From Streptomyces lincolnensis (GTDB lineage Bacteria; Actinomycetota; Actinomycetes; Streptomycetales; Streptomycetaceae), in NCBI RefSeq assembly GCF_021173675.1, contig NZ_JAIHON010000001.1:310001-374000 (forward strand): a stretch of DNA of 64,000 nt. The letters are read 5' to 3'. This document shows positions 25,923-34,257 of this stretch, piece after piece (positions within the stretch are counted from its first letter, which is position 1; every line of letters begins with the position of its first letter). The notes under the pieces were generated by a model. The model was not told where the DNA came from. It searched no databases and saw only the letters and a program-made list of their open reading frames with translations. The position numbers and the translations under genes are program-made.

Positions 25923-27014
25923 TCACCCGGCATGGATCCGGTCCACCAGGATGTCGATCACCAGCGGTGTGCGTGGACCGAAGCTCAGCAGCACGCCGTC
26001 CTCCAGGGTGACGACGCGTCGGTCCAGGCCGGCCGGGGTCTCGCGGATGCCGGGGATGTCGACCAGGCCGTCGACGCCGCCGACGGACTCCAGCCCCTTG
26101 TCCATCATCAGGATGACGTCGGGCCGGGCGGAGACGAGGGCCTCGCTGGTGAGGGGGGTGAACGGCTTGTCCAGGCCCCCTTCGACACCCGCGTCCACCG
26201 CTCCGGCCGCCGCGATCAGGGAGTCCGCGCCGGACCCCTTGCCGCCCATGAGGTAGACGGCCGCGCTGCCGCGCATGTAGAGGAAGGCCACCTTGGGCCT
26301 GCTGCCCTGGGGCACGGCCGCGCGGGCGGCGGCGAGTTCCTTGTCGATGCGGGCGTTGAGGGCCTGGCCCGCGGAGGGCACGCCGAGGGCCTCGGCGATG
26401 CGGGTGGTGCGGGTGGAGACGTCGGCGAGTTCGGTGGCCGGGTCGAGGACGACGACAGGGACTCCGGCGCCCCGGATCTGGTCGATGGCCTCCTTGGGCC
26501 CGGTGTCGGTGTCGGCGAGGACCACCGTCGGCTTCAGCGACAGCACGCTCTCCGCGCTCACGTCGTGGGCCCTGGTCACCTGGGGCAGCTTCTTCGCCTC
26601 GGCGAAGGTGGCGGTGATGTCCCGGCCGACGACCCGGTCCCCGAGCCCCAGCGTGAACACGATCTCCGCCACGCCGCCGTTGAGCGGCAGGATGCGCGAG
26701 GCGTCCTTCACGGTCACCCGGCGGCCGTCGGACGAGTCGACGGTGACGGGCAACTCCGGTGCGGGCGCCTTGCCTTCGAGGGGGACGAGAGTGTTCGTCG
26801 CGAGCTGCTTCTCGGCCGCCGCCGCCCGCTCGCCGGCCGAGGCCGCGGACGCGCTCGACCCCGATCCCGACCCCACTCCCGACCCCGACTCCGGCGAGGA
26901 CGAGGAAGGCGAGGTGCCGCCGCAGGCAGCCGTCAGCAGCGCGAGGGCCAGCACGACCGGCGCCAGCCCCCTGCGCCGCGAAGGGAGTTTCCGGCATCTG
27001 TCGGACATACGCAT
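25923..27014 (-). CDS. HmuT-like heme/iron ABC substrate-binding lipoprotein
   Basis: This 363-residue protein is a periplasmic-binding-type lipoprotein with lipobox LTAAC (Cys31), a Ser/Gly-rich spacer and the TroA-type domain GVAEIVFTLGLGDRVVGRD. The HmuT family binds heme through His and Tyr; His150 in VTRAHD and Tyr246 in AFLYMRG or Tyr254 in VYLMGG are candidates, not proven ligands. No permease or ATPase follows on this strand, so the transporter partner is elsewhere or absent. The ATG at 27014 has GGAAGG upstream. An iron box lies 48 nt before it. Confidence 0.82.
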   Translation of the reverse strand: MRMSDRCRKLPSRRRGLAPVVLALALLTAACGGTSPSSSSPESGSGVGSGSGSSASAASAGERAAAAEKQLATNTLVPLEGKAPAPELPVTVDSSDGRRVTVKDASRILPLNGGVAEIVFTLGLGDRVVGRDITATFAEAKKLPQVTRAHDVSAESVLSLKPTVVLADTDTGPKEAIDQIRGAGVPVVVLDPATELADVSTRTTRIAEALGVPSAGQALNARIDKELAAARAAVPQGSRPKVAFLYMRGSAAVYLMGGKGSGADSLIAAAGAVDAGVEGGLDKPFTPLTSEALVSARPDVILMMDKGLESVGGVDGLVDIPGIRETPAGLDRRVVTLEDGVLLSFGPRTPLVIDILVDRIHAG

Positions 27015-27061
27015 CGCTTGGCCTTCCGAGTCTCTCGTGTGACATACCATCGGCCACCAGA

Positions 27062-27080
27062 TTAGGTTAGGTTTACCTTA
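27062..27080. promoter_or_regulatory. Candidate iron box (DmdR1/DtxR-type operator)
   Basis: TTAGGTTAGGTTTACCTTA matches the reported streptomycete iron-box consensus TTAGGTTAGGCTCACCTAA at 16 of 19 positions. It lies between the divergent HmuT-like gene and the wall-protein gene, so one site could repress both when iron is plentiful. Confidence 0.75.
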
Positions 27081-27104: not shown

Positions 27105-27914
27105 GTGAATGGGGCAAGTGGCCTGCGCGGCAGACGAGTTGCGGGAGCGGCCACCCTCGCGGCGATCGCCCTGACGCTCTCGACGACCTCGCCCGCCACG
27201 GCCGCGGGCGGCTCGGCGACGGGCCCCGAGGGCCAGCGGCTCACCGTCTCCAAGTCCTCCGGCCTCGACCCGGCCGGCGAGACGGTGACGGTGTCCGGCA
27301 CCGGCTACAACACCGAGAAGGGCATCTACGTCGCCTTCTGCGTGGACAACGGCGCCGGGAAGACGCCGACCCCGTGCATCGGCGGCGTCGACATGTCCGG
27401 CGAGTCCGGGGCGTCGGTGTGGATCTCCTCCAACCCGCCGTCGTACGGCGAGGGGTTGGCCAAGCCCTACGGCGGCAGCGGGCACAAGGGCACGTTCAGC
27501 GTGAAGCTCAAGGTGCGTTCCAAGGACGCGAACACCGACTGCGGCAAGGCCGGCGTGACCTGCTCGGTGATCAGCCGCAACGACCACACCCGCGGCGGCG
27601 ACCAGAGCCAGACGGTCCGGATCCCGGTCACGTTCGGCGGGAACGGGAGCGGAAGCGGGAACGGCACGTCGGGCGACGGCGGCGCCACCGCGACACCGAG
27701 CGCGAGCACCACCGGCGGCACGACGAGCGGCTCCGGCGACGGCGGTTCCGACGACGGCGGTACGGAGTCGTCGAGCGGGCCCCTGGCCGGCACCGGTTCC
27801 ACCGCGCTGACGGTCGGACTCACCGCCGCCGGGCTGGTCGCGGCCGGCTCCGGCGCCTGGCTCTGGGCGCGGCGCCGTCGTACGGGACACGCGGGCGGCC
27901 CGAGCGCGCACTAG
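27105..27914 (+). CDS. Neocarzinostatin-fold-like surface protein with LAxTG sorting signal
   Basis: This 269-residue protein has a signal peptide (cleavage near ATAA), one beta-sandwich domain with the motifs GTGYNTEKGIYVAFC, TPCIGGVDMSG and TDC...TCSVISRNDH, then a Ser/Gly/Thr linker. It ends with LAGTG (227-231), a membrane helix and a basic tail. The cysteine spacing and final DC-x5-C-x-V segment resemble neocarzinostatin apoprotein; this is a motif-level match. LAxTG points to a class E sortase and wall anchoring. Start is a GTG with a weak GGGGG upstream. Confidence 0.8.
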   Translation: MNGASGLRGRRVAGAATLAAIALTLSTTSPATAAGGSATGPEGQRLTVSKSSGLDPAGETVTVSGTGYNTEKGIYVAFCVDNGAGKTPTPCIGGVDMSGESGASVWISSNPPSYGEGLAKPYGGSGHKGTFSVKLKVRSKDANTDCGKAGVTCSVISRNDHTRGGDQSQTVRIPVTFGGNGSGSGNGTSGDGGATATPSASTTGGTTSGSGDGGSDDGGTESSSGPLAGTGSTALTVGLTAAGLVAAGSGAWLWARRRRTGHAGGPSAH

Positions 27915-27943
27915 GAGCACAGGGAGCAGAGGGAGAAGTGAAG

Positions 27944-28903
27944 ATGACGAAGAGACCCGGCGCCGTCGCCCTGGCGGGCGGCGCCCTGCTCGCGCTGCTG
28001 CACCCGGGGGCGGCCGCCGCACAGGGCGGGGAGGCGTTCCCCCGCGAGGTGTCCGGCGGATTCGCGAGCTGGACCACCACCGGCAACCGCCTCGCCGACC
28101 GGGGCGTGTCGGTCGACGTGACCGCCCCCGCCACCCGGAGTGCCGCGGACCGTGCCTGGTTCCCGGCCACCGCAGGCGGCGCGAACCCCGAAACCGGCGA
28201 CGCGGACGTGGAGTTGGCCGGTTCGGCCCAACTCTCCGGCGCCGCACAGCCGTTGACGCTGAGCGGTCTGCGACTGGAGCTGCGCGACGGCACGGGCACG
28301 CTCCACACCCGGACGGTCGTCGGGACCGGGGCCCGTGAACTGGCCCTGGCCGACGTGACCTTGGGCGACACCGCCCCCGCCGTCCGCACCGGTGGCGTGA
28401 CCTGGTCCGGGCTGAAAGCCTCCCTCACGGACGAGGGGGCACAGCTGCTGTCCGCGTGGAGCGGAAACCCCTTCTCGGAAGGGGACGATCTTGGCTTTCT
28501 CGACGTGACCGTGGGGACCGGGAGCGCCGGTACCGCGCCCACCCCACCCCCGTCACGGCCGGACGCGCCCTCGGGGCCGTCCGCCACACCCCCGCCCCCG
28601 CCCCCGGCACAGGACCCCGAGAAACAGCGGGCGGAACCCGCCGCCTCGGTGGCACGCGCCACTCTGGCCGCCGGCGGCGAACAGACCGTCATCGGCACCG
28701 GTTTCGAGCCCGGCGACGTGGTGCTGGTCGCCATCGACGACGATACCCGCCACCAGGCCGTGGCCGACACCGAGGGCCGGATCTCCCAGACCTTCCCGGT
28801 GTACGCGACGGCCGACGAGGGCGCGCACACGGTCGCACTCTCCACCGTGACCGGGGAGCGCGCCGCCACCACACGGTTCGAGGTCCAACCCGCCGCGGAG
28901 TGA
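27944..28903 (+). CDS. HtaA-like secreted protein
   Basis: This 319-residue protein has a signal peptide (VALAGGALLALL then AAAAQ) and one HtaA-like domain, about residues 30-175, with LELRDGTG, ELALADVTLGD, the VRTGGVTWSGLKASLTDEGA stretch and an ending FSEGDDLGFLDVTVG. HtaA domains bind heme in corynebacteria. A Pro-rich linker and a second Ig-like unit (TVIGTGFEPGDVVLV) follow; there is no membrane anchor or sorting signal, so it may be released as a hemophore. The ATG at 27944 has GGGAG 8 nt upstream; it lies 29 nt after the preceding gene. Confidence 0.76.
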   Translation: MTKRPGAVALAGGALLALLHPGAAAAQGGEAFPREVSGGFASWTTTGNRLADRGVSVDVTAPATRSAADRAWFPATAGGANPETGDADVELAGSAQLSGAAQPLTLSGLRLELRDGTGTLHTRTVVGTGARELALADVTLGDTAPAVRTGGVTWSGLKASLTDEGAQLLSAWSGNPFSEGDDLGFLDVTVGTGSAGTAPTPPPSRPDAPSGPSATPPPPPPAQDPEKQRAEPAASVARATLAAGGEQTVIGTGFEPGDVVLVAIDDDTRHQAVADTEGRISQTFPVYATADEGAHTVALSTVTGERAATTRFEVQPAAE

Positions 28904-28932
28904 TCCGGCGTGTTACCGACACCCTTTGCACA

Positions 28933-28964
28933 CCGAGGAGCGGGCCCCACGGCCCGCTCCTCGG
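28933..28964 (+). terminator. Strong hairpin terminator after the HtaA-like gene
   Basis: A perfect 14-bp stem with a CCAC loop: CCGAGGAGCGGGCC (28933-28946) pairs with GGCCCGCTCCTCGG (28951-28964). It separates the first iron-box operon from the next. Confidence 0.8.
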
Positions 28965-29040
28965 CATGCCCAACTCTCCTGGTCCACCAAGGGCGTTGAG
29001 AACGTTTTGCCGACCGTTGACAATTCCACGGAACTCGTAT

Positions 29041-29059
29041 TTAGGTTTGCCTTACCTAA
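29041..29059 (+). promoter_or_regulatory. Second candidate iron box
   Basis: TTAGGTTTGCCTTACCTAA matches the iron-box consensus at 16 of 19 positions and has inverted TTAGGT/ACCTAA ends. It lies 45 nt before the start of the small secreted protein gene. Confidence 0.78.
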
Positions 29060-29103
29060 CTCCGATCGGAGTGGGGACACCCCAGAAAGGTGAGACGCTC
29101 GCC

Positions 29104-29643
29104 ATGAGAGCCGTTCCTTCCGCACGTACCGCCGCCCGCGCCACCCTCGCCGTCGCCGCCTCCGCCGCCCTCACCCTGGGCCTGGCGACCTCCGCCTCCG
29201 CCGCCACCTCGACCCGCACGATCGTGGACGGCAGCACCACCTACAACCTGTCGGTGACCGCCCCGAACACCGCCTCCGCGGCCGGCCAGGTCATCAACGT
29301 CACCGGCTCCGGCTTCAACACCGGCCAGGGCATCTACGTCGGCCTGTGCGTGGTCAGCGGCGCCCCGGGCGCGGCCAAGCCCACCCCGTGCCTGGGCGGC
29401 CAGGACGAGACCGGCGCCACCGGCGCCTCGCACTGGGTCAACAACACCTTCGGCGGCATGTTCGCCAACAGCTCCAAGTTCGGCACCGGCGGCACCTTCA
29501 ACGTGAACATCTTCGTCAAGGCCACCCTCGACGACGGCCGCGTCTGCGGCGACGACGTCACCTGCGCGATCGTCACGCGCGCCGACCACTTCGACACGGA
29601 CGACCGCAAGTACGACGTCCACGTGCCCATCACCTTCCAGTAG
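29104..29643 (+). CDS. Secreted single-domain neocarzinostatin-fold-like protein
   Basis: This 179-residue protein has a signal peptide ending near SASAAT and one domain like that of the 27105 gene: GSGFNTGQGIYVGLC, TPCLGG, VCGDDVTCAIVTRADH and the last strand VHVPITF. It lacks a wall anchor or transmembrane helix, so it is released or held loosely at the surface. It has its own iron box and is followed by a hairpin at 29656-29679. A ligand-binding or hemophore-like role is inferred from location and fold only. Confidence 0.8.
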   Translation: MRAVPSARTAARATLAVAASAALTLGLATSASAATSTRTIVDGSTTYNLSVTAPNTASAAGQVINVTGSGFNTGQGIYVGLCVVSGAPGAAKPTPCLGGQDETGATGASHWVNNTFGGMFANSSKFGTGGTFNVNIFVKATLDDGRVCGDDVTCAIVTRADHFDTDDRKYDVHVPITFQ

Positions 29644-29655
29644 CCGCCCGCCGGA

Positions 29656-29679
29656 CCGGGCCCTCACGCGGGGGCCCGG
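29656..29679 (+). terminator. Hairpin after the small secreted protein gene
   Basis: CCGGGCCC (29656-29663) pairs with GGGCCCGG (29672-29679) around an 8-nt loop. It may be an attenuator, since the next gene begins only 50 nt later on the same strand. Confidence 0.55.
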
Positions 29680-29729
29680 CTCTCGCACGACCGGAGTGCC
29701 GGGCGCACCCGACACGTGAGGAACTCCCC

Positions 29730-32351
29730 ATGACAGACGACACGCCCGGCCGGCAGCGGCCGGGCCGTACCGGCGGGCCGCGCCTCAGACGCCCCGCGGC
29801 TCTGCTGGGCGCCACCGCCCTGCTGGCCGCCGCGGTCACGGCCGTCACCGTCGGTTCGGCCGCCCAGGCCGCCGACACCCCGAAGACGGCCCTCGGCAAG
29901 AACGGCCAGAAGCTCTCCGTCTCCGCCTCCGCGAACCTGGACCCGGACGGCGAGACGCTCAAGGTCACCGGCGACGGCTACGACGACACCAAGGGCGTCT
30001 ACGTCGCCGTCTGCAAGGACAACGGCGACAACCGCATCCCCACCCCCTGCCTCGGCGGTGCCGACCAGAGCGGCGGCAGCGGCGCCTCGGCGTGGATCAT
30101 CCCCCGGGACGCCTCGGACGAGGGCGCGGGCACGGTCGCCGTCCGGTGGGGCGAGGGCGGCACCTTCGACGTCGAGCTCAAGGTCAGGGCCAAGGACGGC
30201 GGCCTCGACTGCCTCCAGGTCGCCTGCTCCGTCGTCACCCGCGTCGACCACAACGCCGCCGGCGACCGCTCCCAGGACGTCCGCATCCCGCTCTCGTTCG
30301 AGGGCCAGGACCCCGGTGGCGGGAACGGCGGCGGCGACGGCGTGGACGTGCCCGCCGGCACCGTCAGCTATGTGAAGGCCGCCGAGGCCACCGAGGTCGG
30401 CAAGCCGCTGGGTGTCCTGCTCCACCCCGACTCCGGGAAGCTGTACGTCGGTTCGGACAACATCCCGGACACCGGTGACGTCAACGAGGCCGGTCTGTAC
30501 GTGCTGGACCCCAAGGACGGCAAGGTGCTCAGCCGGGTCGCCCAGGCCCCCGGCTCCACCGGCACGATGCTGCCCCGTACCGTCCAGCGGCTCATCGCCC
30601 CGCTCGCCGGTGACGGGGTGGTCTTCCAGTACCCGGTGCGCGGCATCGGCACCGCCAAGGACGGCGACACGGCCGCCAAGGGCGTCTGGCCGCCCGGCTC
30701 GACGGTCACCGGGGCGGCTCCCGGCACCGACGCGTCCACCGTCTTCATCTCCCAGGGCGCCGTCCTGTCCGAGATCGAGATCGCCACGGGCGCGGTGAAG
30801 CGCACGGTCACCCTCGAAGCGGGCGGTGACCTCGCCGCGGACAGCGCCCGCGGTGTCCTGTGGTCCGCCGAGGGCACGGGCGGGAAGCTGCGCCGCGTCG
30901 ACGCGCGCTCCCTCGCCGTCACCGCCCAGGTGGATCTGCCCGCCGAGATCCTCTCCTTCGTCCGGGTCGACCCCGAGACCGGCAACGTCTGGGTGGGCAC
31001 GGGCTATTCGGTGCTCGTCCACGACAAGGACGGCAAGCTCCTGACCACCCTCAAGGGCAAGGACCGGCCCACGGCGGTGGCCTTCGACAGGACCACGGGC
31101 GAGGCGTTCGTCCTGCGCGAGGACTACGGCACCGCCGACGACGGCGCGGACAACGTCGGCGCCCTGGAGGTGTACGACAGCGCCACCTTCCAGCAGGCGG
31201 CCCAGCCCCTCGCCCTGCCCGGCAGCCGCTCCGCCACCTTCGCGGGTGCCGCCGTGACCCCGGGCGCCGGCTCGGTCTTCGTCACGAACCAGGCCGAGAG
31301 CAAGGTCGTCCGGTTCGACCGCCGGGTCTCCCCCGAGGTCACCCAGTCCCCCACCGACCAGTCCGTCGCCCCCGGTGACACGGTGACGTTCGTCGCCGCC
31401 GCCACGGGCACCCCCGAGCCCACCGTGCGCTGGCAGGTCAGCCCGGACGGCGGCCAGACCTGGAACACCGTCGAGGGCGCCACGAAGAACGCGTACTCCT
31501 TCACCGCGAAGGCGGCGCAGAACGGCTACGCGTACCGGGCCGAGTTCACCAACTCCGTGGGCACCACCCGGACGTCGCCGATCACCCTCACGGTCACCGA
31601 GGCCGGCGGCGACGGCGGCGCGGACGGCGGGAACAACGGCGGCGAGGACGACGAACCGTCCGGCACGAAGACCGTCACCGGCCCCGAGGGCCAGAAACTG
31701 ACCGTCACCCCGGTCAACCACCTCGCCACCGAGAACCAGACCCTGAAGATCACCGGTTCCGGCTACGACGAGGACAAGGGCATCTACGTCGCCCTGTGCG
31801 TCGACAACGGCGAGGGCGAACTGCCCACCCCGTGCATCGGCGGTGTCGACATGAGCGGCGCCTCCCACTCCTCGGCGTGGATCTCCTCCAACCCGCCGGA
31901 CTACGGCGAGGAGTTGGCGACGCCGTACGGGGCGGGCGGTTCCTTCGAGGTCGAGCTGACGGTGGACGCCAAGGACGAGTTCACCGACTGCTTCAAGGCC
32001 ACCTGCGTGCTCGCCACCCGCGCCGACCACACCCTCTCCGGCGACCGCTCCCAGGACGTGAAGGTCCCGGTCGCCTTCGTCGGCCAGGACCCGGTGGACA
32101 CCGACCCGGGCACCGGTGACACCGGCGGTACGGGCGGCTCGGGCTCCGGTTCCGGGGGTTCGACGGGCGGCACGAGCACCACGGGCGGCGGCGCCGCTTC
32201 CGGCTCCACGACCGGCGGCTCGGGCACCTCGGCCACGGGCGGCGGCAGTCTCGCCTCCACCGGCGTCACCGTGCTCTCCGTCGCCGCGCTCGCGGCGGCC
32301 CTGCTGGGCGCCGGCTGGGTGGCCTACCGCCGCGGCCGCGCCGTCGGCTGA
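29730..32351 (+). CDS. Multidomain wall protein: NCS-like domain, propeller, Ig-like, NCS-like, LAxTG
   Basis: This 873-residue protein has a long signal region (to about residue 50), a first neocarzinostatin-fold-like domain (about 55-190, TPCLGGADQ and VVTRVDH), a YncE-like repeat region suggesting a beta-propeller (about 205-540, e.g. GVLLHPDSGKLYVGSDN), an Ig-like domain (about 545-630) and a second NCS-like domain (about 650-790, TPCIGGVDMSG and LATRADH). LASTG (841-845), a membrane helix and RRGR form the sorting signal. The two NCS-like units flank a likely ligand- or cell-binding scaffold. Inference: a surface receptor of the iron-regulated system. Confidence 0.8.
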   Translation: MTDDTPGRQRPGRTGGPRLRRPAALLGATALLAAAVTAVTVGSAAQAADTPKTALGKNGQKLSVSASANLDPDGETLKVTGDGYDDTKGVYVAVCKDNGDNRIPTPCLGGADQSGGSGASAWIIPRDASDEGAGTVAVRWGEGGTFDVELKVRAKDGGLDCLQVACSVVTRVDHNAAGDRSQDVRIPLSFEGQDPGGGNGGGDGVDVPAGTVSYVKAAEATEVGKPLGVLLHPDSGKLYVGSDNIPDTGDVNEAGLYVLDPKDGKVLSRVAQAPGSTGTMLPRTVQRLIAPLAGDGVVFQYPVRGIGTAKDGDTAAKGVWPPGSTVTGAAPGTDASTVFISQGAVLSEIEIATGAVKRTVTLEAGGDLAADSARGVLWSAEGTGGKLRRVDARSLAVTAQVDLPAEILSFVRVDPETGNVWVGTGYSVLVHDKDGKLLTTLKGKDRPTAVAFDRTTGEAFVLREDYGTADDGADNVGALEVYDSATFQQAAQPLALPGSRSATFAGAAVTPGAGSVFVTNQAESKVVRFDRRVSPEVTQSPTDQSVAPGDTVTFVAAATGTPEPTVRWQVSPDGGQTWNTVEGATKNAYSFTAKAAQNGYAYRAEFTNSVGTTRTSPITLTVTEAGGDGGADGGNNGGEDDEPSGTKTVTGPEGQKLTVTPVNHLATENQTLKITGSGYDEDKGIYVALCVDNGEGELPTPCIGGVDMSGASHSSAWISSNPPDYGEELATPYGAGGSFEVELTVDAKDEFTDCFKATCVLATRADHTLSGDRSQDVKVPVAFVGQDPVDTDPGTGDTGGTGGSGSGSGGSTGGTSTTGGGAASGSTTGGSGTSATGGGSLASTGVTVLSVAALAAALLGAGWVAYRRGRAVG

Positions 32352-32405: not shown

Positions 32406-33353
32406 TCAGATCGACACCGCGACGGCGTTGTACGTCGTCTCCGGCGTCGGCGGGGTCGTGAAGCGCGCGTTGACCAGGTACAGGCGGTCACCGAAGCGGG
32501 CGGCCGTGGTCGGCACGTCGAAGCGCGGGTCGGTGACGGTCCGGCGCAGGGTGGCGGTGGTGGCCGCCTTGTCCAGGTCCCAGACGCTGATCAGGTTCAG
32601 CCGGTTCTGCACGACGTACAGCGTGCGGCCGATGCGCCACAGGCCGTCGCCGTTGACGACGGTGTCCTGGCCGACCAGCGTGATCCTGGTGGCGTGGCCC
32701 GTCCTCGGGTCCACGCGGTACAGCTCGCCCGGCGTGCTCTTGACGACGATCAGACCGCGGCCGTCGGGGGTGTCCACGATGCCGTTGCCGTTGTTGACGT
32801 CGGGCAGCTGCACCCAGTCGCCGGTCAGCGGCAGCGTGCGGATCCCGCCCGTCCGGCCGCCGCGCGGGACGCCGTAGAGGAACGCGGCGCGTGAGTCGGT
32901 GAACCAGGCGCGGTCGCCGAGGAGGGTCACGTCGTTGATGAAGTGGCCGGTGGGCTCGGAGAGTTGGTGGGTGACGAGGAGCTCGCCGGTGCGGGCGTCG
33001 TGCACGCGGGCGACGCCGGTGTTGCCGGCGACGTAGAGCAGCCCGTCGTGGTCGATCTTCAGCCCGACGGAGATCAGGCCGGTGGCCCCGGCGAAGAGGA
33101 TCGCCCCCTCGCCGGTGCGCAGGTCGGTGCGGTAGATCGCGCCGTTGGCGCGGGAGCCCATGTAGGCGTACGGCTTGCGGCCGATGGCGATGCCCTCGGG
33201 GAGGAAGCCGTCGGGCAGCGGGAACTCCGTCGGCCAGGGGGTGTTCGGGGCCGCGACCGCCGTGCCGGTGCCGGCCGTCGCCGTGAGGGCGGCGAGAGCG
33301 GCGGCACCGCCCAGCACGGCGCGTCTGGTGGGTCGGGGGTGGGTCGAGCTCAT
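32406..33353 (-). CDS. Secreted SMP-30/NHL-type beta-propeller protein with Tat signal
   Basis: This 315-residue protein starts with a Tat-like signal, STHPRPTRRAVLGG, followed by a hydrophobic stretch. The rest is a repeated beta-propeller with blades such as GLISVGLKIDHDGLLYVAGN and NGNGIVDTPDGRGLIVVKST, typical of SMP-30/gluconolactonase or quinoprotein-like proteins. No catalytic metal set was confirmed, so a hydrolase activity is not claimed. The ATG at 33353 has GGAGG 8 nt upstream. Repeats at 33402-33468 suggest it is regulated. Confidence 0.8.
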   Translation of the reverse strand: MSSTHPRPTRRAVLGGAAALAALTATAGTGTAVAAPNTPWPTEFPLPDGFLPEGIAIGRKPYAYMGSRANGAIYRTDLRTGEGAILFAGATGLISVGLKIDHDGLLYVAGNTGVARVHDARTGELLVTHQLSEPTGHFINDVTLLGDRAWFTDSRAAFLYGVPRGGRTGGIRTLPLTGDWVQLPDVNNGNGIVDTPDGRGLIVVKSTPGELYRVDPRTGHATRITLVGQDTVVNGDGLWRIGRTLYVVQNRLNLISVWDLDKAATTATLRRTVTDPRFDVPTTAARFGDRLYLVNARFTTPPTPETTYNAVAVSI

Positions 33354-33401
33354 GGGTGGGGCCTCCATGACGTCGGCTGCGCTGACAGATGCTGCTGAAC
33401 A

Positions 33402-33468
33402 GTGCCGTCGTAAGCCTTTGCTACTGCACGGTGCTGTCGTAAGCCTTCGTTGACAACTACGTTGACAA
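33402..33468 (-). repeat. Paired direct repeats upstream of the propeller gene
   Basis: Two 17-nt copies of GTGCCGTCGTAAGCCTT (33402-33418, 33431-33447; one mismatch) are 29 nt apart, and TTGTCAACG occurs twice in tandem with a 12-nt period on the minus strand (33448-33468). The set lies 50-115 nt before the start codon and may be an operator or promoter region. Confidence 0.5.
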
Positions 33469-33531
33469 TGGCGTGAGTTGGCAACGATTTTGCGCCGTCC
33501 TGAGTTCCCCGTGACCCGCCCGCCCCCGGTG

Positions 33532-34257
33532 TCACGTCGTGCGGCCCGCCACCACCCATGTCGAGGGGAGTTCGATCCGCGTGCCGTCGGGCCGGTACTC
33601 GGTGGTCGTGAGCGGCAGGTCACCGCCGGCCAGGATGCTCAGCCCGGCCACGTTCAGATACACGGGGATCGCGTCGTCGGCGACCTCGCCGGGTGCGATG
33701 CCGTGCCGGAAGATCGGCGCCAGCTTGGGCGGCGGCCCCGCCGAGCCGCCCGCCAGGTCCCGCAGGACCTGCTTGGCGTCCTCGGAGAGTTCGACGAGGA
33801 AGGCCCGGCCGCGCTCCCCGACGAGCGCGGCGATCCCGTCCACCAGCGCCTGCCGGTCGTCGGGGTCGGCCTGGTGCAGGACGCCCCGCATGTAGACGTT
33901 GGCGTCGCCGAGTTCCGCGTGCAGGGCTTCCGTCTCCCCCTTGTCGGCGGCGTCCAGCGACCGGTAGGACGCCTGTCCCGCCGGGTCGGACCGCCGGGCG
34001 TGGTCGAGGGCGGCGCCGGACAGGTCGGCGCCGACGACCCGCGGGAAGCGGTCGGCGAGGAAGCGGGTCTGGGTGCCGTTCCCGCAGCCGAGGTCGATCA
34101 TCGGCAGCCTGTGGTCCACGAGATGGGGTTCGAAGAGAGCGAGGTGGACGCCGGCCGTCAGCACCGGCTCCGCGTCCCACATCACGCTCCCCTGGTCGCC
34201 CGGGGCCTCGCGCCAGAAGCCCTCCCAGGCATCGCGATACCGACTCGTCACGCTCAT
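33532..34257 (-). CDS. Class I SAM-dependent methyltransferase
   Basis: This 241-residue protein has the SAM-binding motif I LPMIDLGCGNGTQTRFLA (about 57-74) and the acidic VVGADLSGAALDHAR that follows. It also has a YMRGVLHQADPDDRQALVDG segment, matching methyltransferase motif II region. A GGGGAG ribosome-binding site is 6 nt before the ATG at 34257. The substrate is unknown; it stands between the propeller gene and the SpoIIE gene, with 150 nt separating it from the latter. Confidence 0.83.
   Translation of the reverse strand: MSVTSRYRDAWEGFWREAPGDQGSVMWDAEPVLTAGVHLALFEPHLVDHRLPMIDLGCGNGTQTRFLADRFPRVVGADLSGAALDHARRSDPAGQASYRSLDAADKGETEALHAELGDANVYMRGVLHQADPDDRQALVDGIAALVGERGRAFLVELSEDAKQVLRDLAGGSAGPPPKLAPIFRHGIAPGEVADDAIPVYLNVAGLSILAGGDLPLTTTEYRPDGTRIELPSTWVVAGRTT

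Follow-up and report, generated by a model that had tools for sequence, protein, structure and literature searches.

Four domains of a Streptomyces lincolnensis locus, all predicted to adopt the neocarzinostatin (NCS) fold, probably belong to an iron-starvation heme-capture system in which the NCS cleft holds heme, a reading to which we give a probability of roughly two in three. In this system, as we infer it, scarcity of iron would take a DmdR1/DtxR-type repressor off two iron boxes. The derepressed products would comprise a secreted protein (gene B), two proteins that their LAxTG tails would anchor in the cell wall (gene A and the two-domain gene C), an HtaA-derived protein, and a divergently encoded HmuT-type binding protein. 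Ferric heme, or a closely related porphyrin, would sit in the open NCS cleft—the chromophore site in neocarzinostatin—where Tyr42 and the histidine of an R-x-D-H motif (His128) would meet its iron. Heme would then be handed inward from the NCS domains to HmuT and on to the permease, and heme oxygenase would release the iron. If this is true, soil actinobacteria also use the fold of the anticancer enediyne carriers to capture heme, and a function can be given to proteins labelled so far just by their resemblance to neocarzinostatin. Among the openly licensed papers that our searches listed, none connects this fold with the uptake of heme.

Gene layout and the neocarzinostatin-like domains

The features of the locus are listed in Table 1; the window is the whole stretch of 64,000 nucleotides that was analysed. 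A preliminary description had placed NCS-like domains in the genes starting at 27105 and 29104 and at both ends of the gene starting at 29730, and this placement was confirmed together with the gene starts and the end at 32351. Because the four domains are 37–58% identical, find each other in pairwise BLASTP at E values of 2.5e-26 to 7e-58 and share 35 invariant columns in their alignment, they are homologous rather than alike by chance. The TPC-x-GG and [S/T]-R-x-D-H motifs named in that description occur in all four. GIYV is found in three, whereas domain C1 reads GVYV; the second cysteine pair exists but not at the spacing of 5–7 that had been given, its cysteines being separated by 6, 5, 4, and 4 residues. 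The HtaA-like gene, the two iron boxes, the divergent binding-protein gene, and the LAxTG tails are additions to that description. The translated proteins of genes A and C end in an LAxTG pentapeptide, a hydrophobic stretch, and a basic tail, the arrangement of a sortase anchor. The middle part of gene C looked beta-propeller-like by eye only; a PDB sequence search with it returned 32 sequences, whose names are those of Ig-type receptors, and nothing propeller-like.

Table 1. Positions of genes, domains, and sites in the window
Feature	Position	Strand	Basis or composition
Divergent HmuT-type heme substrate-binding protein, 375 aa	25923..27050	-	Pfam Peripla_BP_2 E 1.6e-32; lipobox-like N-terminus (by eye)
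Iron box, DtxR/DmdR1-type, between binding-protein gene and NCS gene A	27062..27080	+	18/19 consensus positions
NCS gene A, GTG start	27105..27914	+	signal peptide (by eye), NCS-like domain, Gly/Ser-rich stalk, LAGTG/hydrophobic/basic tail
NCS-like domain A	27216..27641	+	pairwise comparison; predicted structure covers 27204-27641
LAGTG sortase-type motif, gene A	27783..27797	+	translation; NCBIfam LPXTG_anchor 15.0 bits, just under cut-off 15.9
HtaA-like protein without usual heme-ligand motifs	27944..28903	+	Pfam HtaA PF04213 E 8.7e-8, 33.3 bits (cut-off 24)
Iron box, DtxR/DmdR1-type, ahead of NCS gene B	29041..29059	+	18/19 consensus positions
NCS gene B, ATG start	29104..29643	+	signal peptide (by eye), single NCS-like domain 29203-29640, no anchor
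NCS gene C, ATG start	29730..32351	+	signal peptide (by eye), NCS/middle/Ig I-set/NCS, LASTG tail
NCS-like domain C1	29877..30305	+	domain comparison and alignment
Immunoglobulin I-set domain, gene C	31332..31595	+	Pfam I-set E 1.6e-6, 28.5 bits (cut-off 23.7)
NCS-like domain C2	31665..32084	+	domain comparison and alignment
LASTG sortase-type motif, gene C	32250..32264	+	translation; script class sortase-like

The proposal of an NCS-like fold held up when structure prediction was run. An AlphaFold2 model of domain A (pLDDT 92.5, pTM 0.88) found chains of NCS, macromomycin, C-1027, and actinoxanthin as its best ten structural matches (Z 9.2–11.5, rmsd 1.9–2.8 over 94–104 residues), ahead of the first non-chromoprotein, which was an arrestin (Z 8.0). 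The chromoprotein apokedarcidin, an NMR structure, came lower still, at Z 6.8 among the arrestins. Foldseek likewise placed chromoproteins at ranks 1–6 (best E 7.0e-5), and no HtaA or NEAT chain stood among the 50 structural matches listed for domain A, an absence that is uninformative. At the sequence level the resemblance is fainter. Against the PF00960 (Neocarzinostat) gathering cut-off of 25 bits, gene A scored 24.7 (25 with its frame neighbours, 24.3 as the domain), with no match at E<=1 as a whole protein, and gene B scored 19.4 (E 0.0011); relatives scored up to 35.3 bits, and 62 of 87 aligned relatives matched at E<=0.01. The source genome has a further PF00960 match, C77, in which the family profile did not find an NCS domain.

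The shared fold and the weak sequence matches to chromoprotein families are what might be expected of carriers of an enediyne or a similar drug, and an enediyne link had been part of the preliminary description. The NCBIfam enediyne chromoprotein model NF040680 argues otherwise: gene A (31.7 bits) and gene B (25.1) fall far under its curated cut-off of 86, and gene C gave no match. Iron boxes and heme genes, moreover, surround the relatives in many genera. On score and gene neighbourhood the enediyne-carrier reading was rejected, and a drug-carrying role of any such kind is highly improbable.

Iron boxes and heme-uptake genes

All box counts were scored against TWAGGTWAGSCTWACCTWA, taken here as the 19-position DtxR/DmdR1 consensus. 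The window holds just two sites with at least 15/19 matches, one ahead of gene A and one ahead of gene B; 100 shuffles of the sequence gave 0 matches. Each is a 19-bp promoter box as in the DmdR1/DtxR regulon, and the first is common to gene A and the divergent binding-protein gene. Across 99 loci, 132 boxes of at least 17/19 were counted, 128 of them within 600 bp of a hit to the gene set used for these distances (NCS, SBP, FecCD, ABC, HmuO, HtaA) and 4 elsewhere, and first-order Markov simulation yielded 0. Two samples count against the heme-capture reading. Just one of the 7 loci of the phylum sample had a box at most 500 bp away from an NCS domain, and four of these 7 lacked any box of at least 16/19. 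Among the single-gene loci of Streptomyces a box accompanied 13 of 20, and HmuO, HtaA, and FecCD stood beside none; four of the seven boxless loci belong to the Phe/Phe group described below and three lie outside it, with boxless L156 carrying His at the Tyr column and an intact D-H, and boxless L155 and L157 being partial matches.

The divergently encoded protein found 11 PDB sequences at E<=1e-10, five named heme or hemin binding, four being forms of Corynebacterium glutamicum HmuT, and two unnamed. In alignment with Corynebacterium HmuT (5az3), the residues opposite His141, Tyr240, and Arg242 are identical, so that the protein keeps the axial His and Tyr of HmuT with their Arg partner. Iron regulation by itself names no ligand, and a coproporphyrin III-producing streptomycete has been described (PMC10060970); both points leave some room for a siderophore, or for coproporphyrin III or its metal complex, as the iron chelate or tetrapyrrole bound in place of heme. 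The axial ligands kept in HmuT and the recurrence of heme oxygenase and HtaA beside the domains in other genera speak for heme, and a different ligand is improbable.

The genes around relatives were called with a simple, rough codon-composition script and scored by HMMs seeded from Pfam-checked representatives. In the 28 loci outside Streptomyces (13 other genera plus the phylum sample), the NCS genes have hmuTUV-type neighbours: the binding protein (SBP) and the permease (FecCD) occurred in 28/28, heme oxygenase (HmuO) in 16/28, and HtaA in 18/28. The 21 loci of the 13 genera, several of which come from one genus or species and are not independent, had SBP and FecCD in 21/21, ABC in 20/21, HmuO in 11/21, and HtaA in 15/21; the corresponding figures for the phylum sample are 7/7 for SBP and FecCD, 7/7 for ABC, 5/7 for HmuO, and 3/7 for HtaA. 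The Streptomyces loci kept the binding protein in 47/51, whereas FecCD and HmuO were each found in only 2/51 within the fetched flanks, which counts against the heme-capture reading. In the source genome, FecCD and HmuO lie on another contig than the NCS genes. One Streptomyces locus (L020) has a contiguous hmuV-hmuU-hmuO-hmuT-NCS_A-HtaA-like-NCS_B-NCS_C order; the window SBP is 87% identical to its counterpart there, and the distant FecCD and HmuO of the source genome 82% and 77%. Two further loci (L050 and L057) encode HtaA and NCS domains in one protein, both above their Pfam cut-offs; a similar fusion in Georgenia (L049) was dropped as firm evidence, its NCS match of 17.5 bits lying below the cut-off of 25. 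HmuO was found by eye in 61 of 62 NCS-bearing genomes (the exception being G362) and was rejected as a discriminating marker, since 336 of the order's 391 genomes carry it. An HtaA match, counted after setting aside nine genomes whose best match reached only E 5e-4 to 8e-10, occurred in 41/62 NCS genomes versus 111/329 others (Fisher p 3.4e-6, uncorrected for phylogeny). A heme-uptake context of the NCS domains is well supported.

Such a context would also be found if the NCS domains served heme uptake without holding heme: as surface receptors or spacers they would dock partner proteins or hemoproteins and leave the heme itself to HmuT and further components. The Ig-like fold, a multi-domain build that includes an Ig I-set domain, and the LAxTG tails all suit that role, and the canonical HtaA domains alongside in other genera could bind the heme. 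In Streptomyces, in contrast, the HtaA-like protein has none of the usual ligand motifs. The window protein, although a PF04213 member by score, lacks in alignment both the axial Tyr with the helix-1 Ser and the helper His, and with motif patterns chosen after its alignment had been inspected, a search found the ligand motifs absent in 45/45 Streptomyces orthologues, versus a Tyr motif kept in 25/30 and a His motif in 16/30 HtaA domains of other genera. A structure model of its domain from the single sequence reached a pLDDT of only 40.1 and is left out of account. Canonical HtaA is moreover missing from 12 of the 17 genomes of the order sample that have at least three NCS domains. Together with a Tyr and D-H conserved like a ligand site, these observations make a docking or spacer role unlikely, though it is the most serious of the competitors to heme capture by the cleft.

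Candidate ligands and the Phe/Phe group

Tyr42 aligns by sequence with residue 32 of C-1027, and R-x-D-H, if no gap intervenes, with residues ~96–99, positions which presumably line the chromophore cleft. Within the stretches covered by the local alignments, the cysteines fall opposite those of C-1027. The preliminary description had the histidine missing from the matching loop of neocarzinostatin; the C-1027 counterpart of R-x-D-H, aligned via an intermediate domain, lacks a His. A putative part of this His as heme ligand, raised in that description, fits the context of iron boxes, HmuT, HmuTUV, HmuO, and HtaA.

Among the 262 domains in which both columns were readable, the only ones counted, Tyr was found in 255 and D-H in 250; the Tyr figure is inflated, since relatives L004–L075 were fetched with Tyr and TPC motif patterns, which did not include the His. 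Some extra NCS domains without D-H inside heme loci (L050, L058, L067, L131, L132, L137) count against the assignment. A natural comparison is provided by a Phe/Phe paralogue in the source genome, located at C55:59232-59831, for which 30 loci, the best of 58 matches, were returned. Tyr and D-H are present in 24 of the 30, and in 24/24 a box of at least 17/19 lies no more than 600 bp from a domain of this kind. The other six read D-F, with Phe at the Tyr column in all five that are readable, and down to 14/19 matches none of them has a box (0/6). Members of the Phe/Phe group share 67–100% identity with the query along almost the entire length, the next matches being at most 45%, and the double replacement probably represents one event. 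If the NCS domain is indeed a new type of heme-binding domain, it comes with a sharp mutational prediction on the change of Tyr42 and His128 to Phe, a change already present in one natural group.

Comparison with known systems

Pathway and regulator of the window locus resemble those of the Streptomyces coelicolor SCO2267-2274 heme locus, which comprises hmuO, htaA, and hmuTUV and is a predicted part of the DmdR1 regulon (PMC12161575); that locus is described with HtaA homologues, and "neocarzinostatin" is absent from the main text of the paper. CwpG of Actinoplanes missouriensis, likened here to the window proteins by description only, carries a neocarzinostatin-like domain and is predicted to be a sortase substrate at the cell surface; its deletion reportedly made no difference to mycelial growth or sporangium formation. 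The paper is a study of morphogenesis, and "heme" is absent from its main text (PMC13251363). A role of the window proteins in morphogenesis was set aside in view of that result.

With the neocarzinostatin family (PF00960; C-1027, macromomycin, actinoxanthin) the window domains share the predicted fold and the cysteine alignment. They differ in being ~30 residues longer, in carrying the Tyr42/R-x-D-H signature, and in lying among iron boxes and genes of heme uptake. A search of PDB sequences with the family profile ranks ThiX first (7qhm_M; E 4.4e-12 over 135 profile positions), which keeps the Tyr, the D-C-x4-C pair, and D-H-T but lacks the Arg before D-H and TPC-x-GG as written. ThiX belongs to the C. 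glutamicum bcc-aa3 supercomplex as an accessory lipoprotein, lipid-anchored and with an unresolved soluble domain, to which the portion of PMC8795186 drawn on here assigns no heme role. Heme capture by NCS domains would, if true, give a first lead on this domain in the respiratory supercomplex.

A close parallel is found in HtaA and ChtA of Corynebacterium, secreted or surface heme binders of beta-sandwich fold encoded beside hmuTUV, whose CR domains bind iron by a Tyr with a helper His or Tyr (PMC12494546). The NCS domains, in contrast, are predicted to have the neocarzinostatin fold, their heme binding is putative, and PF04213 was matched neither by genes A, B, and C nor among the four families listed for the 87 aligned domains. 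The NEAT relays of other Gram-positives, in which a repeated wall domain passes heme inward (PMC12494546), serve as a working analogy, whereas Pfam scans of the window proteins and the 87 domains gave no NEAT match. With rather less than even confidence, we suggest that the NCS fold constitutes a third independent class of Gram-positive surface heme-binding domain beside NEAT and HtaA/CR, with Tyr and His in the cleft, and that it predates the enediyne carriers and is more widespread than they are; those carriers would then be a late, drug-carrying offshoot. ThiX would be a member possibly handling heme near the cytochromes, and the whole, if true, would hint at the origin of the enediyne carriers.

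Fold and arrangement of the domains

The four neocarzinostatin (NCS)-like domains of the window, termed A, B, C1 and C2, are encoded by three genes within a 10.5 Mb genome.

Features of the NCS-like locus
Feature	Position	Strand	Description
Periplasmic-binding-protein gene	25923-27050		Pfam match; divergent, ahead of gene A
Iron box	27062-27080		18/19; precedes gene A, common to the divergent binding-protein gene
NCS gene A	27105-27914		One NCS-like domain; LAxTG-hydrophobic-basic tail at end (translation)
HtaA-like gene	27944-28903		Between A and B; PF04213, 33.3 bits versus cut-off 24
Iron box	29041-29059		18/19; precedes gene B
NCS gene B	29104-29643		One NCS-like domain; signal peptide, without anchor (translation)
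NCS gene C	29730-32351		NCS-like domain near each end; LAxTG-hydrophobic-basic tail (translation)
SMP-30/gluconolactonase-like gene	32406-33623	-	Downstream of gene C
Methyltransferase gene	33532-34257	-	Downstream of gene C

The copies share pairwise identities of 37-58% (E 2.5e-26 to 7e-58). The two cysteine pairs and the R-x-D-H motif that the preliminary description had ascribed to all four indeed lie within 35 invariant columns, which also include Tyr-Val and a Trp. The nearest named relatives of domain A come from Streptomyces (83-91% identity) and one 'Actinobacteria bacterium OV320'. The middle of gene C (about 30306-31331, from the first NCS domain to an Ig domain) appears beta-propeller-like by eye; no Pfam family exceeds its cut-off there, and a PDB sequence search returned Ig-type names only. 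For the two genes downstream of gene C, no connection to heme uptake was seen.

An AlphaFold2 model of domain A, built on a profile alignment of 87 domains, is nearly all beta (mean pLDDT 92.5, pTM 0.88). The ten chains closest to it in structure (Z 9.2-11.5, 94-104 residues aligned) belong to neocarzinostatin variants, macromomycin, C-1027 and actinoxanthin. An arrestin comes next (Z 8.0); apokedarcidin, also a chromoprotein, reaches only Z 6.8. Foldseek likewise puts chromoproteins in its first six places (best E 7.0e-5). PF00960 is matched at E<=0.01 by 62 of the 87 aligned domains, the window's own lying at or under the Pfam cut-off. A divergent Kribbella domain matches C-1027 (E 5.1e-6) and an engineered neocarzinostatin (E 2.2e-5), with two unrelated CD276 Ig chains equalling the C-1027 score. 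The window domains are thus predicted to have the neocarzinostatin-like fold that had been proposed, but the enediyne association suggested along with it is not supported, as they score far under the cut-off of the NCBIfam enediyne chromoprotein model.

Iron boxes and heme-uptake neighbors

The binding protein encoded ahead of gene A matches 11 PDB sequences at E<=1e-10: five named as heme or hemin binding, four forms of Corynebacterium glutamicum HmuT (5az3 being the one named in PMC4926363, the others assigned by sequence) and two unnamed. By alignment, the axial ligands His141 and Tyr240 of HmuT and their partner Arg242 (PMC4926363) are all kept in the window protein.

For the iron box we assumed the DtxR consensus TWAGGTWAGSCTWACCTWA. 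Exactly two window sites match it at 15/19 or better, and 100 shuffles gave zero matches. At a threshold of 16/19, an NCS domain is preceded by a box at no more than 500 bp in 49 of 51 Streptomyces-type loci, fetched by homology, and in 17 of 21 loci from 13 other genera. Across 99 loci (1.64 Mb), 132 boxes of at least 17/19 were observed, against none expected from a first-order Markov simulation; 128 of them have a match to NCS, the substrate-binding protein (SBP), the FecCD permease, the ABC ATPase, heme oxygenase (HmuO) or HtaA within 600 bp, and 4 are elsewhere. Contrary to this pattern, in the even phylum sample outside the genus a box is found within 500 bp of the NCS domain in only 1 of 7 loci, and any box of at least 16/19 in 3/7.

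Neighboring genes were identified by HMMs seeded from Pfam-confirmed representatives. The 21 loci from other genera, some of the same species, contain SBP (21/21), FecCD (21/21), ABC (20/21), HmuO (11/21) and HtaA (15/21); for the phylum sample, selected independently of neighborhood, the counts are 7/7, 7/7, 7/7, 5/7 and 3/7. HtaA-NCS fusions in which both domains exceed Pfam cut-offs occur in Nocardiopsis (locus L050) and Kribbella (L057); in Georgenia (L049), the NCS match within an HtaA protein is under the cut-off. In Actinoplanes, one protein (L073:7628-8890) combines an HtaA domain with a WxL surface-binding domain (51.5 bits); an Actinomadura NCS-like-domain protein (L067:2642-4564) ends in a WxL-like stretch just under the cut-off (24.2 versus 25 bits); such stretches are perhaps another anchoring route.

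Within the fetched flanks, Streptomyces loci keep SBP in 47/51, FecCD in 2/51 and HmuO in 2/51. One of these exceptions, Streptomyces sp. NBC_00620 (L020), carries the complete order hmuV, hmuU, hmuO, hmuT, box, NCS_A, HtaA-like, box, NCS_B, NCS_C, its HmuT being 87% identical to the window binding protein. The window genome encodes FecCD and HmuO on another contig (L107:6098-8610, G000:C12), 82% and 77% identical to the L020 copies, with boxes of 16/19 (FecCD) and 18/19 (HmuO) near their starts. The window therefore appears to carry one half of a system that is complete elsewhere. The 14 kb fetched around HmuO/FecCD contain no binding-protein match, and the missing partner may be the window protein. 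Beside these genes, a long G-rich repeat (L107:5500-5900) encodes a polyproline stretch within an open frame whose remainder is alpha/beta hydrolase-like by eye; it may be a genuine repeat or an assembly artefact.

Conservation and loss of the tyrosine and histidine

Where both columns can be read, Tyr occupies column 42 in 255 of 262 domains and D-H is present in 250. Because the patterns used to fetch relatives L004-L075 include the Tyr and TPC motifs, Tyr conservation in this group is partly selection; the His lies outside those patterns. In a divergent paralogue of the window genome (L108:7233-7832, G000:C55:59232-59831), Phe replaces both residues, and neither iron box nor heme gene was found in the surrounding 14 kb. 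Searching with this paralogue gave 58 matches in 55/391 genomes. Among the best 30 of the 58, analysed as loci, 24 have Tyr and D-H, all with a box of at least 17/19 within 600 bp of such a domain; in 12 of these, another domain follows downstream and has no box of its own. The other six have R-x-D-F, with Phe at the Tyr column in 5/5 readable cases, and show no box even at 14/19. Identity to the query is 67-100% for the six, leaving out a seventh that is a 67-residue fragment, and does not exceed 45% for the matches that follow, so by sequence the replacement was probably one event. The boxless group has kept Arg and Asp and lost the Tyr hydroxyl and the imidazole. Three more boxless Streptomyces loci (L155-L157) fall outside it.

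A putative heme relay and its known counterparts

Tyr42 aligns with residue 32 of the C-1027 carrier, and R-x-D-H falls near residues 96-99, given no intervening gap in an alignment via an intermediate domain; both regions we take to be part of the chromophore cleft. In the HtaA/ChtA CR domains, heme is coordinated via a tyrosine, with a His or Tyr as helper residue (PMC12494546). This ligation and the position of both motifs led us to propose a Tyr/His heme site within the NCS cleft. In this scheme B would be the secreted hemophore, A and C would be anchored in the wall and pass heme on, and HmuT would receive it at the membrane.

In the window HtaA-like protein, alignment finds neither the helix-1 Ser/Tyr nor the helper-His motif, and the ligand motifs are absent in 45/45 Streptomyces orthologues. 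Thirty HtaA domains adjoining NCS genes in other genera keep the Tyr motif in 25 and the His motif in 16 cases. In the order sample, no canonical HtaA was found in 12/17 genomes with at least three NCS domains, which leaves the NCS domains as the candidates for surface heme capture in them.

The family occurs in 62/391 genomes of the order sample and 10/396 of the phylum sample (8/236 genera). The openly licensed literature searched yielded no neocarzinostatin-fold domain in a heme-uptake system of this type. Corynebacteria are known to have iron-controlled surface heme binders that feed HmuTUV, and a system of this kind is predicted for S. coelicolor (PMC12161575). Among the relatives, ThiX (PDB 7qhm_M) was unexpected; it matches the profile of 27204-27641 and relatives at E 4.4e-12. 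In the bcc-aa3 respiratory supercomplex of C. glutamicum, ThiX is an accessory subunit, a lipoprotein whose soluble domain is unresolved in the published structure (PMC8795186). Judged from this profile match, ThiX is homologous to the NCS-like family; the Tyr, the D-C-x4-C pair and the D-H are kept in its aligned part.
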